Both the position numbers and the translations under genes were made by a program. From Fructobacillus papyrifericola (GTDB lineage Bacteria; Bacillota; Bacilli; Lactobacillales; Lactobacillaceae), in assembly GCF_018437235.1 (NCBI RefSeq), contig NZ_JAAMFJ010000003.1:20032-84031 (forward strand): 64,000 nucleotides of DNA, read 5' to 3'. The notes under the pieces were generated by a model. The model saw nothing but the letters and a program-made list of their open reading frames with translations. It was not told the origin of the DNA and did no database searches. This document shows positions 48,091 through 53,083 of the stretch, in pieces (the first letter of the stretch is position 1; every line of letters starts with the position of its first letter).

Positions 48091-49543
48091 GGTTCATTTT
48101 CCTTTCAAAATGGTTTAACAAGCGGGTCAATGTAAAGGTCATCAAGAAGTAAATCACCATCACGACCACAATTGGCGCAACGGCCCGATAGGTGTCGGCC
48201 CGAACCACGTTCAATTGATAGATCAAATCAGAGACACCAATAATGGACACAATGGAACTTTCCTTCAAAACGGAAATGAATTCGTTTCCAAGCGATGGCC
48301 AGATGTTTTTAAAGGCTTGGGGAAGAATAACGAAGCGCATGGTGTCGACTTTTGAAAAGCCGATACTCTGAGCCGCTTCCGTCTGCCCCTTATCCAAACT
48401 GTTGATCCCACCACGAATAATTTCAGCGACATAGGCGCCAGAATTCAAGGCAACGGCAATAATACCAGCCGTTAATGCGGGTAGGTTGATCAGCGTGCCC
48501 AGGCCAAAGTAAACAAGCAAGACCTGCACCATCATTGGCGTTCCACGAACAATTTCGATGTAGGCGGTCGCTGGCCAAGAAAGAACCTTCCAAGCCGACA
48601 ACTTCATCATGACCAAAAGCAAGCCAAGTAAAATCCCAAAGAAAACGGCCAGAACGGCAATCAAGCTGGTGTTCAAAAAGCCGTTGTAGAAGTAGTGCCA
48701 GTAGCGCAGCATGGACGTATCCTCGGCGTTGTCATCAACGTACTTCCCAGCTTCTTTCAAATACTTATCCGTCCAGTGGTTCTTTTGAATCTTGTCGATC
48801 GATTGGTTAACGGCGTTAATCAAGCTCGTTGATCCTTTGGCTGCTGCCACTGCCTTACCACTCTCAACCGAATCGTTTGGATAACCGGCATCAATCATGG
48901 CCAGCTTTTTGTTGTGGGCAACGTAGGCTTGAGCAACGGGCTTTTCAATTCCGACCGCATCGACTTTTCCATTTTCGAGGGCAAAAATCAGGTCGGCCGT
49001 CTTGTCCATGTTCGACACCGTGCTGTCGTCAAAGTACTTTTGGGCTAAGTTGTTTTGCAAAGAGCCCGTTTGCGTCCCAATTTTTTGCCCATGCAACTTC
49101 TTGGCTGTCGGATACTTCTGAAGGTCTTTTTTGTTGATTAAGAAGGTTTGGCCACCCGTGTAATAGTTCTTCGAAAAATCAACTGACTGCTTCCGCTCGT
49201 CGGTAACCGACAGACCGGCAATGGCAATGTCGGCTTTTCCGGTTTGGATGGCTGCCAAGACCGAGCCAAAGTCCATGTTTAAGATCTTCAACTTAACCCC
49301 CAGGTCCTTGGCGATTTGCTTGGCCACTTCAATATCCAAACCAACGTCTTCAGTTTTCCCATTAACTGTCGTTTGTGACTCAAAGGGCGGGTAGTCCGGG
49401 GAAGTCGCGACTTTTAAAACACCGGTCTCCTTTACCTTTTGCAAGCTGTTATCGTCTGCCGAAGCGCTCAGTGCACCCGGTCCAATCATCATGAAGCTGG
49501 CTATGGCAATGGCCAACCAAGCTCCGATCTTCTTCATCATCAT
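48083..49543 (-). CDS. Amino-acid ABC transporter: substrate-binding protein fused to permease
   Basis: A 486-residue fusion: signal peptide (1-27, MMMKKIGAWLAI... ASA), a type-3 periplasmic-binding domain (about 30-260; ATSPDYPPFE, GLDIEVAKQIA, GLSVTDERK), then a permease of several helices (about 275-480) with TPMMVQVLLVYFGLG and the EAAQSIGFSKVDTM EAA loop. The fusion replaces the usual lipoprotein anchor. The first of three consecutive ATGs (49543) follows GAGGAG; the frame open up to 49846 is the T-box leader and is not translated. Substrate: asparagine, arginine or another polar amino acid, see the T-box. Confidence 0.92.
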   Translation of the reverse strand: MMMKKIGAWLAIAIASFMMIGPGALSASADDNSLQKVKETGVLKVATSPDYPPFESQTTVNGKTEDVGLDIEVAKQIAKDLGVKLKILNMDFGSVLAAIQTGKADIAIAGLSVTDERKQSVDFSKNYYTGGQTFLINKKDLQKYPTAKKLHGQKIGTQTGSLQNNLAQKYFDDSTVSNMDKTADLIFALENGKVDAVGIEKPVAQAYVAHNKKLAMIDAGYPNDSVESGKAVAAAKGSTSLINAVNQSIDKIQKNHWTDKYLKEAGKYVDDNAEDTSMLRYWHYFYNGFLNTSLIAVLAVFFGILLGLLLVMMKLSAWKVLSWPATAYIEIVRGTPMMVQVLLVYFGLGTLINLPALTAGIIAVALNSGAYVAEIIRGGINSLDKGQTEAAQSIGFSKVDTMRFVILPQAFKNIWPSLGNEFISVLKESSIVSIIGVSDLIYQLNVVRADTYRAVAPIVVVMVIYFLMTFTLTRLLNHFERKMNHD

Positions 49544-49579: not shown

Positions 49580-49828
49580 AAAAAAACGCCCTTTAGTCAT
49601 TTGACTAAAGGACGTTTGCACGCGGTACCACCTTGATTGTGCTAAAAAAGCACCTCTCATTATTCGATCAAAACTACTAATCGTCAGCTCTTTAATGGGA
49701 GCACCCAGCATGGTTTTCATCGCATGCACCATGAGGCGACGTTCGCCTAATCCTACCCTGTGTTTCACACTAACCAACACTTCACTGCGCGGTAAGAAGA
49801 AGACTACTACTTCCTCAGCAACGTTTTT
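49580..49828 (-). promoter_or_regulatory. T-box riboswitch controlling the amino-acid ABC operon
   Basis: On the minus strand the leader carries the T-box sequence AAGGTGGTACCGCG (49621-49634) followed by a terminator with 14-bp arms (49586-49599, 49602-49615) and a T run. Stem I closes by TGAGG/CCTCA (49813-49817 with 49732-49736), with the AGTA motif on the 5' side. The specifier strand reads GGCGAACGTCG: AAC (Asn, 49741-49743) or, if GAA belongs to the loop-E motif, CGT (Arg, 49739-49741). Uncharged cognate tRNA would switch on transport. Confidence 0.88.
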
Positions 49829-49918
49829 TATTATTAACTTGTCCATAACTATAACAGGTTATTTTCATAATGCAACACTTTTATGAGAGAAATTTTAATA
49901 TATCATCAAAAAGTCCGA

Positions 49919-51097
49919 TTAGATCATGTCCAGGTGCGTCTGGTTGGCTTTAATCCAGCCCATCTTCCGCATTGCCCAGTAGGTAAAGAAGGAGATGACA
50001 ACTGGAATGGCGACGGCCACGCCCATGTAGGCAGCAAAGATGCCAACCCCCTTACCAAAGAGGGCCAGTGGGACGATGAAGGAGTTAAAGCCGATACCCG
50101 CCATGGTAAAGGGCACCGAAATGTGGAAGACCATCGTGGCAATCGGTGCGGCAATGGCCGCCCCAATCATTGGTGGAATCAGAATCATGGGGTTCTTAAT
50201 CACGTTTGGAAACTGAATCTTTGGTGTCACAATTCCTTGGGCGATGGTCGCCCCAATCTTGTTTTCATGCCATGACATGGCTGGGTAGGAAACAAAGACG
50301 GCGGTCGTTCCAACCAGGATGGCACCGGCCGCATCGGCAGAGGTAATGCCAGTGGCCCCGATGGCAACGGCCAGGGCAGCGGCGGAAGCCGGTGTCATCG
50401 TCATTGCACCGAAGGCCATGGCGACGATGGCCGTTCCAATAATTGGGTTAACGGCAACCATGGACGCAATGCTATGACCCAGCCAAACCAGGAAGGGCGT
50501 GGTGACGATGGCCAGATAATATCCGGCAATCGTTCCAACAATGGTGGTGGAAGCTGGCACAATGATCATGTCCAGCGGCGTCTTACCAGACAGCCACTTG
50601 CCAAAGAGAACGGCAATCAGCCCAGCTAAGACGGCCGAAATCGGTTGCCCCGTGGTCATCACGGCAGAACCGGCGACTTGGGCAGATGAGAAGCCCGTCA
50701 TCGTCTTTAAGACCATTGGCGTTGTGGTGAAGAAAACCGCGTTGGCGCCAACCGTGGAAGCGGCCATAGCGGAGAACATGACCATTGTGTTCGTCTTCAT
50801 TTGCGAAGCAATGGCTGCACCAAAGGCGGCTGGCAGGATGACTTTGGTCACCGCCCCCATCTGCACCATTGGTCCCCAGTGGATGAAACCAGCAATCGTT
50901 TGCAGTAAAAGACCCATCCCAAGCGTCACCAAGATGGCGTTTGAAACGGCGGCCGACACGTTGTAAACGTATTCTTTTACCGTTGATTGTCCCTTTTCCT
51001 GCTTTTCCATTGCCTGTTCAGACTGTTCAAAGTCCTTAATGTTTTCTTCTTTTTTCCCGTTAGCGGCCATCGCCGCCTGATTTCCTGACATATCCAT
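49919..51097 (-). CDS. PTS EIIC-like membrane protein of the PfoR group
   Basis: A 392-residue membrane protein of the PTS_EIIC_2/PfoR family: a charged cytoplasmic head (about 1-40, KEENIKDFEQSEQAMEKQEKGQ region) and about ten hydrophobic, glycine-rich helices. It stands alone with no EIIA or EIIB partner, so PTS transport is doubtful; the family's role is unknown. AAGGA precedes the ATG at 51097. Expression is predicted to be governed by a leader-peptide attenuator (51122-51309) that reads leucine codons, which argues for a link with branched-chain amino-acid supply. Confidence 0.8.
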   Translation of the reverse strand: MDMSGNQAAMAANGKKEENIKDFEQSEQAMEKQEKGQSTVKEYVYNVSAAVSNAILVTLGMGLLLQTIAGFIHWGPMVQMGAVTKVILPAAFGAAIASQMKTNTMVMFSAMAASTVGANAVFFTTTPMVLKTMTGFSSAQVAGSAVMTTGQPISAVLAGLIAVLFGKWLSGKTPLDMIIVPASTTIVGTIAGYYLAIVTTPFLVWLGHSIASMVAVNPIIGTAIVAMAFGAMTMTPASAAALAVAIGATGITSADAAGAILVGTTAVFVSYPAMSWHENKIGATIAQGIVTPKIQFPNVIKNPMILIPPMIGAAIAAPIATMVFHISVPFTMAGIGFNSFIVPLALFGKGVGIFAAYMGVAVAIPVVISFFTYWAMRKMGWIKANQTHLDMI

Positions 51098-51121
51098 CTT
51101 TCTCTTCCTTTCAAATCAAAC

Positions 51122-51204
51122 AAAAAAGTCCCGGTAGTACGTAAACGTAACTACCGGGACCATCATTGGTGAGCAGTTACTAGGCGTCGACACCCTAGTA
51201 ACTG
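51122..51204 (-). promoter_or_regulatory. Attenuator: antiterminator and terminator hairpins before the PfoR-like gene
   Basis: Minus strand: stem 2:3 CAGTTACTAGG / CCTAGTAACTG (51194-51204 with 51174-51184) and the terminator GTCCCGGTAG / CTACCGGGAC (51151-51160 with 51128-51137) with a T run. Two alternatives compete: CCTAGT at the peptide's stop codon (51225-51230) with ACTAGG (51194-51199), and GTAACT (51175-51180) with AGTTAC (51147-51152). That is the classical 1:2, 2:3, 3:4, 4:5 layout. Confidence 0.75.
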
Positions 51205-51225
51205 ATCCATACAAAAATCAACTCA

Positions 51226-51309
51226 CTAGGATGTCCATAGCAAGCTCAACAACAAGGCAAATTCAGATGACTTAAATGAAGCGGTATTCTTTGATTGAGA
51301 GATAAACAT
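51226..51309 (-). CDS. 27-residue leucine-rich leader peptide
   Basis: A short open frame too small for usual gene calling. It begins with ATG at 51309, eight bases after GGGAGG (51318-51323), and ends with TAG at 51226. The last third reads FALLLSLLW followed by TS, that is five leucines in six residues except one Ser, four of them TTG codons. The stop codon lies inside the first arm of the attenuator, so ribosome position would decide which hairpin forms. Three Phe codons occur upstream of the Leu run. Confidence 0.75.
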   Translation of the reverse strand: MFISQSKNTASFKSSEFALLLSLLWTS

Positions 51310-51347
51310 AGCGTCATCCTCCCTTCCTGATGTTTTATGATAAATTT

Positions 51348-51375
51348 ATTATAACATGAGATTTCGATTAAACAA
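51348..51375 (-). promoter_or_regulatory. Promoter of the leader peptide and PfoR-like gene
   Basis: TTGTTT (51370-51375), 16-nt spacer, TATAAT (51348-51353) with a TG extension on the minus strand, about 25 nt before the leader's ribosome site. Confidence 0.65.
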
Positions 51376-51384
51376 GAGGAAAAC

Positions 51385-51412
51385 AAAAAAAGTTGGTCAA
51401 AGCCAACTTTTT
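51385..51412 (-). terminator. Terminator after fhs
   Basis: AAAGTTGG / CCAACTTT hairpin with a T run on the minus strand, directly after the stop. Confidence 0.8.
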
Positions 51413-51415
51413 TCT

Positions 51416-53083
51416 TTAAAAGAGCCCTTTTATGCGACCCTTTTCATCGATATCAATGTCCATGGCTGCCGGATGCTTTGGCAAACCAGGCATCGTCAAC
51501 ACGTTGCCCGTCAAAGCAACCAGGAAACCAGCCCCCAACTTCGGCACAAATTCCCGCACGTGCACGGTAAAGTCCTTTGGCGCTCCCAGTTTCTTAGCAT
51601 CGTCAGAAAGTGAGTACTGGGTCTTGGCCATGACAATTGGCAACTTATCCCAACCAAGGGCTTCAAAGTTCTTCAATTGCTTTTGCGCCTTGTCAGACAG
51701 TTCAACACCGTCACCACCATAGATATTTTGAACAATTTTGTTCATCTTTTCCACGGCAGAATCAGCCGCTGCATAGAGTGGGGAAAACTTTGATTCTTCC
51801 TCGGCCTTTTCCACGACTAAGGCAGCCAAGTCCTTGGCCCCATCCCCACCATGGGCCCAGACATCCGCCGTAACGGCTTCTGCTCCAACGGCCGCAGCGG
51901 CTTCTTTCACCATGGCAAGCTCAGCGTCCGTATCGGCCGTAAAGCGGTTTACCGCCACCACAACGGGTGCGCCATAGCGCTTCATCGCTTTGATGTTCTG
52001 CTGGAGGTTTTCTACACCATCTGAAAGAGCCTGCAAATCCTCTTGATTCAAATCGGCCAAAGCCTGACCCCCGTGGTGTTTCAAGGCTCGAACCGTGGCG
52101 ACAACCACCACAACGTCCGGTGCCTTGCCCAACTTTGGCACCTTAATGTCCATGAACTTCTCACCACCGAGATCAGCCCCGAAGCCCGCTTCCGTCACGG
52201 CATAGTCGGCTAAAGTCAAAGCCGCCCGCGTGGCCTGAACCGAATTGGTTCCCTGGGCAATGTTGGCAAAGGGTCCGCCGTGAATAATGGCCGGCGTGTG
52301 GGCCAGGGTCTGCACCAGGTTTGGCTTAATGGCGTCCTTCAAAAGCACTGTCAAGGCACCCGCCACGCCCAAGTCCTTAACCGTCACCGGCTTCTTATCA
52401 AAGTCGTAGGCGACCACAATTTTTTCAATGCGGCCCTTCAAATCCATCAAGTCCGTCGACAAAGTCAAAATCGCCATCATTTCAGAGGCCACCGTGATGT
52501 CAAAGCCGTCCTCCCGCGGTACCCCGGAGGTAGGGCCACCCAGGCCAATCGTCGTGTGACGGAGGGCCCGGTCGTTAATGTCTAGAACTCGCTTCCAGAT
52601 CACTCGGCGCTGATCAATGTGCAAAGGATTGCCCTGGTAAATGCTGTTATCTAAAGCAGCCGACAGCATGTTGTGAGCGGCCGTTAAGGCGTGAAAGTCA
52701 CCAGTAAAGTGCAGATTAATGTCGGCCATTGGAATGACTTGGGAATAACCGCCACCGGTGGCCCCACCCTTCAGGCCCATGACTGGACCAAGGGATGGTT
52801 CACGCAGAGCAATCATCGTTTTCTTGCCGGCTGCTTGCAAGGCATCGGCCAGTCCGACCGTCACCGTTGACTTGCCTTCCCCTGCCGGGGTTGGGTTAAT
52901 GGACGTCACCAGAATCAGTTTCCCTTCGTGCTTTCGTTGCACGCTTTTATCTAGGTTGATTTTCGCCTTATCGTAACCGTAGGGTTCGATTTCACTTGGC
53001 AGCAAGCCAGCTTTTTCAGCAATTTCACTGATTGGCAACAATTCCGCTTCTTGAGCAATTTCAATATCGGTCTTCATGGGCAT
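51416..53083 (-). CDS. fhs: Formate-tetrahydrofolate ligase
   Basis: A 555-residue enzyme making 10-formyl-THF from formate, THF and ATP for purine and one-carbon metabolism. Seen: the P-loop-like [57 protein letters not shown], and [17 protein letters not shown]. The start is ATG at 53083 (GGGAGG four bases away) or the next ATG two codons on. A likely -10 (GGTATACT) lies upstream. Monocistronic. Confidence 0.97.

Follow-up and report, generated by a model that had tools for sequence, protein, structure and literature searches.

In a 64,000-nucleotide stretch of the Fructobacillus papyrifericola contig NZ_JAAMFJ010000003.1, called the window below, a gene for a PfoR-type membrane protein of family PF13303 is preceded by a leader that is very probably a ribosome-mediated attenuator sensing leucyl-tRNA, with the EIIC-fold protein under its control probably serving leucine-type import. 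We hold this reading, taken whole and drawn from the sequence, with high confidence, and it predicts that transcription of the PfoR-type gene would require a shortage of charged leucyl-tRNA. The whole attenuator region occupies the minus-strand gap that separates fhs from the PF13303 gene, and its elements and neighbours are as follows.

51318..51323, minus strand: Shine-Dalgarno sequence GGGAGG of the leader open reading frame (ORF), 8 nucleotides 5' of the ATG (from the sequence)
51226..51309, minus strand: leader ORF of 27 codons, MFISQSKNTASFKSSEFALLLSLLWTS, with stop codon TAG (from the sequence; kept in 37 of 37 close orthologues)
51238..51255, minus strand: Leu codon run TTG TTG TTG AGC TTG CTA (from the sequence)
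51239..51246, minus strand: arm 1, AGCTTGCT, in the Leu codons, partner arm 2 (covariation over 33 leaders)
51217..51235, minus strand: arm 2, containing the stop codon, partner arm 1 or arm 3 (repeat search and covariation)
51189..51207, minus strand: arm 3, partner arm 2 (antitermination) or arm 4 (termination) (repeat search and covariation)
51174..51184, minus strand: arm 4, partner arm 3, or arm 5 through GTAACT (repeat search and covariation)
51147..51160, minus strand: arm 5, 5' side of the terminator, containing the AGTTAC that pairs with arm 4 (repeat search)
51122..51138, minus strand: arm 6, 3' side of the terminator and T run (from the sequence and repeat search)
49919..51097, minus strand: regulated gene, PfoR-type membrane protein of 392 amino acids, PF13303 PTS_EIIC_2 (Pfam; EIIC fold)
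51348..51353, minus strand: -10 element TATAAT of a predicted promoter with a poor -35 (from the sequence and relatives)
51385..51414, minus strand: predicted fhs terminator (terminator scan)
51416-53083, minus strand: fhs, the 5' neighbour of the leader

The six arms form a relay in which the pairings 1:2, 3:4 and 5:6 are mutually exclusive with 2:3 and 4:5. With leucyl-tRNA scarce, a ribosome would stall on the Leu run and cover arm 1, arms 2 and 3 would then pair and arm 4 would be free for arm 5; the 4:5 helix would block the terminator 5:6, and RNA polymerase would read on. With leucyl-tRNA plentiful, the ribosome would reach the stop codon and cover arm 2, the pairings 3:4 and then 5:6 would form, and transcription would end. 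The predicted fhs terminator would make the leader a separate transcription unit.

The ribosome site, the 27-codon peptide, the TAG inside an arm, the alternative arms and the terminator with its T run, all described in the original prediction, are present on the minus strand. Every arm named there was recovered by repeat search, but its scheme lacked the first arm, which is formed by the Leu codons. This arm, AGCTTGCT (51246-51239), is complementary to AGTGAGTT (51227-51220), directly 3' of the stop. The repeat search gave an 11-nucleotide pair, 51225-51235 with 51189-51199, that includes CCTAGT/ACTAGG, and a 14-nucleotide pair, 51194-51207 with 51171-51184; the GTAACT/AGTTAC pair joins 51175-51180 to 51147-51152, and the terminator stem is made of 51150-51160 and 51128-51138, followed by six T. 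A consensus scan did not list this terminator, probably owing to its bulge and loop. The RNA from 51100-51330 folds at -80.4 kcal/mol, whereas its shuffled versions average -56.8 (z -5.1), and none of 200 such versions folded as stably. The leader peptide ends in ALLLSLLWTS, and when the gap was shuffled by dinucleotides, 33 of 20000 sequences contained a Shine-Dalgarno-led ORF with at least five Leu in its last 11 residues.

The family was searched in 397 Lactobacillaceae genomes sampled from a larger group, and a Leu-run ORF was found upstream of all 37 orthologues with at least 73% protein identity, 12 in Fructobacillus and 25 elsewhere (18 of 18 in L045-L062 and 7 of 7 in L083-L088 and L101). 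Six genera are represented, g1 (Fructobacillus), g6, g7, g16, g19 and g39, among which g6, g7 and g16 are taken as Convivina, the genus of Leuconostoc fallax, and Leuconostoc because their leader peptides are identical to those of L039, L042 and L043, and g19 is probably Periweissella, from the name of protein P0085. The Fructobacillus set comprised 13 genomes, with G000 being that of the window, and the thirteenth, G002, gave no orthologue in the family search. The peptide core is ALL[L/R/S][S/N]LL in most leaders, with variants such as NLLLSLL and TLLLNLL, and the N-terminal half varies freely. The terminator search found an intrinsic terminator in 32 of the 34 PfoR Leu leaders without N runs, the exceptions being L084 and L087.

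To compare the arms, 33 distinct Leu leaders were placed in one alignment, which omits L038 and L041 (N runs), L063 (too divergent) and the near-copies L045, L046, L048, L049, L055 and L101. In this alignment 89.5% of the cells of 1:2 and 3:4 were paired. Changes on both sides were seen in 8 of these pairs, and the covariation score was reached in 0 of 500 shuffles. For 2:3 the paired cells amounted to 94.2%, with a 6-bp core paired in 33 of 33 leaders; its covariation score was reached in 0 of 500 shuffles and its number of pairs changed on both sides in 8 of 500. When the arms were slid as controls, paired cells dropped to 18-59%, and these controls weigh more than the shuffles because kinship alone can beat such shuffles without structure. 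The 4:5 pairing persists although its sequence differs between the window, with GTAACT/AGTTAC, and Leuconostoc and Convivina, with GGTTAGG/CCTAACC; its duplex energy is below the shuffled-arm mean in every leader examined, with single-leader energies that are sometimes not significant (L037: 14 of 100 shuffles as good). The original prediction had staked itself on conservation of the small frame and the arms in relatives, and both are conserved, the frame and Leu run in 37 of 37 close orthologues and the arms through covariation over the 33 aligned leaders.

Several strong hairpins within so short a stretch could also suggest a constitutive terminator array or a source of small RNA, in which the small ORF would be incidental. 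Against this, the ORF holds its frame, start, Leu run and stop position as the sequence around them changes, and the competing 2:3 pairing, which a simple terminator does not need, covaries, so that such an explanation appears extremely improbable to us.

The switch was then simulated by folding the RNA up to arm 5 at equilibrium with a ribosome-sized mask placed either on the Leu run or at the stop; this excluded L041, L084, L087, L020 and L021, which had N runs or gave no terminator in the search. The folds back the switch in most leaders, not in all. In the window, going from the stop to the Leu stall raised 2:3 from 0.1 to 15.7 expected pairs and lowered 3:4 from 14.4 to 0, and 4:5 had 12.8 expected pairs on the Leu stall compared with 3.3 at the stop. 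Across 32 PfoR Leu leaders, stalling raised 2:3 in 24, lowered 3:4 in 25 and raised 4:5 in 22. Such equilibrium folds are support and not proof, because attenuation is a race during transcription.

Further evidence for leucine came from a covariance model, R1, trained on 21 PfoR and BrnQ leaders with no leuA leader among them. Across the 397 genomes, 47 carried an R1 match at E<=0.01. Fifteen of these R1 loci, and then eight more (L235-L242), were read gene by gene. The eight comprise six leuA-led operons (L236, L237, L239-L242), one BrnQ gene (L238) and one regulator-like gene (L235). The leuA leaders end in ..TALLLNLLRLP, ..SALLLSLLRLS, ..SSALLSLLRYS, ..NNALLLNLLDHLT and, twice, ..AALLLNLLRLP. 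For four of these six operons the leuA protein was compared with family models, and the best match was 2-isopropylmalate synthase at E <=6e-161; the four proteins stay under the curated cut-offs because they have 388-391 amino acids compared with about 500 in the models. The ORFs after leuA resemble leuB and leuC by eye, and both appear shortened in L237. Since R1 was trained without a leuA leader, the leucine operon is an independent finding, and by sequence the PfoR gene and the leucine genes are preceded by closely similar motifs. On stalling, 2:3 rose in five and 3:4 fell in five of the six leuA leaders, with 4:5 up in four and down in none.

In the 13 Fructobacillus genomes R1 gave 43 rows at E<=0.5, and the 37 rows at E<=0.0031 (19 training, 18 new) all lie directly before PF13303 or BrnQ genes. 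The remaining six comprise a BrnQ gene (G005:C23, L243), a hydratase-like gene preceded by an Ile leader (G010:C24, L244), three rows antisense of PfoR leaders, and G010:C22:49835 (E 0.34). The last of these, the matches in g13, g14, g18, g29, g30, g33 and g37 (E 7.7e-5 to 0.0095) and the remaining Leuconostoc rows lie outside the gene reading.

The first 15 loci comprise three PfoR, two BrnQ and ten hydratase-like genes, the last with a BrnQ-like ORF next in nine of ten (identified by NCBIfam in L222 and by N-termini in the other eight). The leader before the hydratase-like gene in Leuconostoc is of Ile type, QIIISIIII and variants (L222-L225, L227, L228, L230, L231, L233, L234). The hydratase-like protein of L222 resembles HpaH/DmpE-type models with scores below the cut-offs, and the gene is an unexplained partner of branched-chain uptake. 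In L235, also from Leuconostoc, a leader ..SIIINLLLR from position 352 precedes an Rgg/XRE-like regulator gene (by eye; no NCBIfam match), and this regulator is possibly under branched-chain attenuation as well.

The same leader design occurs with Ile and Val codons. In five Fructobacillus genomes a tandem second PF13303 copy (L014-L018) has the leaders RIIIVSVL, QIIIISLQ, QVIIIVSLL and QVIIIISLL, in four a dispersed copy (L019-L022) has IIVAIIII, VIVISIIII and AIVISIIII, and in eight Leuconostoc genomes a second copy (L161-L163, L165-L169) has INVVIII, INAVIIM and similar; the g39 tandem copy L170 has a weaker leader, QAVIISSPS. The branched-chain score of L014-L022 was matched by 0 to 11 of 100 shuffles (11 in L015), and as one Ile/Val leader by itself would be weak evidence, it is the recurrence that carries the case. 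On a tree of 47 proteins, whose P rows were labelled by genus and not leader by leader, the Ile/Val label requires two changes. The genome of the window has three BrnQ genes, two with the leaders AIIISIIIP and AVVVSVVIR and the third without one. Among BrnQ regions of six further genomes, leaders of both kinds were read in G002 and G004 and of Ile type in G005 and G011 (L183), and no such leader was found in L181 and L182 (both G011), L184 and L186. On stalling, 2:3 rose in five and 3:4 fell in five of 11 other PfoR leaders, and in five and four, respectively, of eight BrnQ leaders. The leucine link made in the original prediction is strengthened by this spread of one leader family, with Leu codons before leuA-led operons and Ile/Val codons before BrnQ genes.

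It might be argued that the peptide itself is the sensor, a nascent chain in the exit tunnel that stalls the ribosome together with free leucine or a drug regardless of tRNA charging. The TnaC and Erm leaders are of this arrest-peptide type, and a spaced motif, A-x-x-x-S/N-x-x, is indeed kept across many leaders. The S/N position, however, is accounted for by the RNA, as its AGC or AAC codon pairs with GTT in arm 2. The same frame is found with Leu, Ile or Val, some leaders have R, S or G in place of the third Leu, and the N-terminal half is not conserved. Codon choice also points to decoding. In 19 leaders, 18 from Leuconostoc and one from g19, CTC makes up 81 of 111 Leu codons. Its share is 1.5% among the 340 Leu codons of 14 other ORFs, drawn from four Leuconostoc loci of which two probably represent one species, and this rare codon fits sensing by decoding. 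In 11 Fructobacillus-type leaders TTG accounts for 40 of 54 Leu codons and CTA for 10 of 54, compared with 39.5% and 4.7% in 42 ORFs of the window. We therefore regard arrest by the peptide as very unlikely, and prefer sensing of leucyl-tRNA.

The regulated protein matches PF13303 with 234.2 bits against a gathering cut-off of 28.9, and database names for the family are sugar phosphotransferase system subunit or membrane regulatory protein PfoR. A sequence search of solved structures gave none at E<=1. An attenuator that senses leucine could merely induce such a protein, whose actual role would be that of a sugar-type EIIC, exporter or membrane regulator. The protein, however, has the EIIC domain alone, and neither EIIA nor EIIB is among the four scanned neighbours, a scan that did not extend to the rest of the genome; the leaders of the paralogues carry different branched-chain codons; and the leader family otherwise stands, in most genes inspected, before BrnQ carriers, BrnQ operons or leuA-led operons, which fits uptake of the leader-counted amino acid by the PF13303 protein. 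We consider a protein that carries no leucine unlikely, at a chance that still has to be reckoned with, and import of leucine or a leucine-related compound by the EIIC-fold protein the likely function. Leader codons fit metabolism at the leuA-led operons and BrnQ genes. No match to ilvC or leuB was found in the genome of the window, and the host cell is likely unable to make its own leucine.

A wider proposal, to which we give an even chance, is that the PF13303 proteins of this clade are phosphotransfer-free branched-chain carriers, and that one ancestral cassette was copied and recoded from Leu to Ile to Val within a kept relay. Copies of it would stand at leuA operons, BrnQ genes and PfoR paralogues, and the leader codons would state the amino-acid preference of the carrier.

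Several observations weigh against attenuation by leucyl-tRNA with leucine import. Pair-type counts in the alignment were unremarkable, being reached in 192 of 500 shuffles for 1:2 and 3:4 and in 488 of 500 for 2:3. In the masked folds, 4:5 fell on stalling in 2 of the 32 PfoR Leu leaders, rose in only 5 of the 11 other PfoR leaders and fell in three, and rose in five of the eight BrnQ leaders and fell in one. The window RNA without a ribosome prefers 2:3 over 1:2 and 3:4, so that an untranslated leader would probably leave the gene on; removal of the start codon, which the original prediction had proposed as a check, need not bring termination for the same reason. Without a ribosome, 1:2 and 3:4 prevail in the majority of Leuconostoc leaders, where the untranslated gene would stay off; L043 and L050 are examples of leaders in which 1:2 prevails. 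Of the promoter that had been claimed, TATAAT at 51353-51348 stands, with TTGACT ahead of it in several relatives (judged by eye), but the -35 is poor and a consensus scan of the window gave no sigma-70 promoter, which is a weak point. TTG, the main codon of the Fructobacillus leaders, is common at 39.5% of Leu codons. Two Fructobacillus genomes that bear leuB had no R1 match beside it, and 24 of 40 more distant PF13303 homologues had no branched-chain-rich leader ORF. Finally, with three BrnQ carriers in the genome, the PfoR protein is not required as sole branched-chain importer.

Some of the more distant homologues have upstream regions of other kinds. Leader-like ORFs before L067, L068, L075, L080 and L092 (homologues of 46-54% identity) were judged by eye to be chance, no relative being seen to share them. 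PF13303 homologues of genera g5 and g22 (L072, L073, L094, L143, L145-L148) have long ORFs rich in Ile, Val and Leu, MAPSAIVLTIIILVLVIIIVRAVRS.. and MLVIIIIGLLLDLVLIITTG.., which appear genuine and perhaps belong to a second, unrelated branched-chain attenuator before PF13303 genes; the six g5 and g22 genomes (G016, G137, G160, G218, G225, G313) are not among the 47 with an R1 match. L064-L066, L069 and L074, of about 50-54% identity, lack a leader ORF. Judged by eye, they have in common an AT-rich stretch, placed between the promoter and the gene, in which TCTCA/TAATCAT-like words are repeated and which may be a protein binding site.

No T-box (RF00230) was found before the PfoR gene at E<=10 in 51050-51430, nor in the relatives scanned. 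T-boxes read tRNA directly, and those seen here lie 3' of the PfoR gene, in the window and in L047. The one in the window, at 49605-49830 (minus strand), separates the PfoR gene from an amino-acid ATP-binding cassette (ABC) transporter gene and scored 91.2 bits, just under the gathering score of 93 (E 1.1e-20); the ABC transporter ORF probably has its true start near 49530, as the listed start at 49846 reads through the T-box. The T-box of L047, from Convivina, scored 100.3 bits. Known families of Rfam (release 15) gave no match at gathering score over the leaders of the window and of the relatives scanned; sub-threshold rows in the window were taken as chance.

The design resembles the his and leu operon attenuators of enterics, which follow a six-segment scheme. 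Shared with them are the run of regulatory codons in a leader peptide, the pairings 1:2/3:4/5:6 against 2:3/4:5 and the intrinsic terminator, whereas the bacterial group, the transporter-like target and the codon swaps among paralogues differ. Branched-chain genes of S. aureus are reported to be under leader-peptide attenuators, and predictions of such attenuators exist for L. lactis and Streptococcus (PMC5794164). The S. aureus ilv-leu attenuator described there has a 26-amino-acid leader rich in Leu and Ile, then a terminator, and responds to leucine; it is likewise a Leu-rich leader with a terminator in a Firmicute, but its target is a biosynthetic operon, its antiterminator pairs with the poly-U tail while the terminator stem stays intact, and the accessible description has neither a six-arm relay nor a transporter target (PMC5794164). 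A Leu T-box before B. subtilis yvbW served to predict a leucine carrier (PMC2494555), and is likewise a leucine-specific RNA element before a transporter; unlike it, the leader here has an ORF and no T-box match. His leader peptides are known from other Firmicutes, and His T-boxes have been reported in Lactobacillales (PMC2965389, PMC9413887 for the former; PMC9413887 for the latter); the His leaders share leader-peptide attenuation in Gram-positives with the present one and differ in amino acid and genes. Searches of the literature on PfoR or PF13303 with leucine, Leuconostoc leader peptides, BrnQ attenuators and leuABCD leaders, mostly within open-access coverage, gave no paper on this leader or on a link of leucine to PF13303. 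The kind of device is known; what is new is this leader family, together with the transporters that it targets and the swaps of its codons.

These results give the orphan membrane family PF13303/PfoR a testable substrate class. They also suggest leader-peptide attenuation as a branched-chain control device of a whole group of lactic acid bacteria, and the natural series of Leu, Ile and Val codon exchanges makes codon-specific sensing testable with parts made by evolution.
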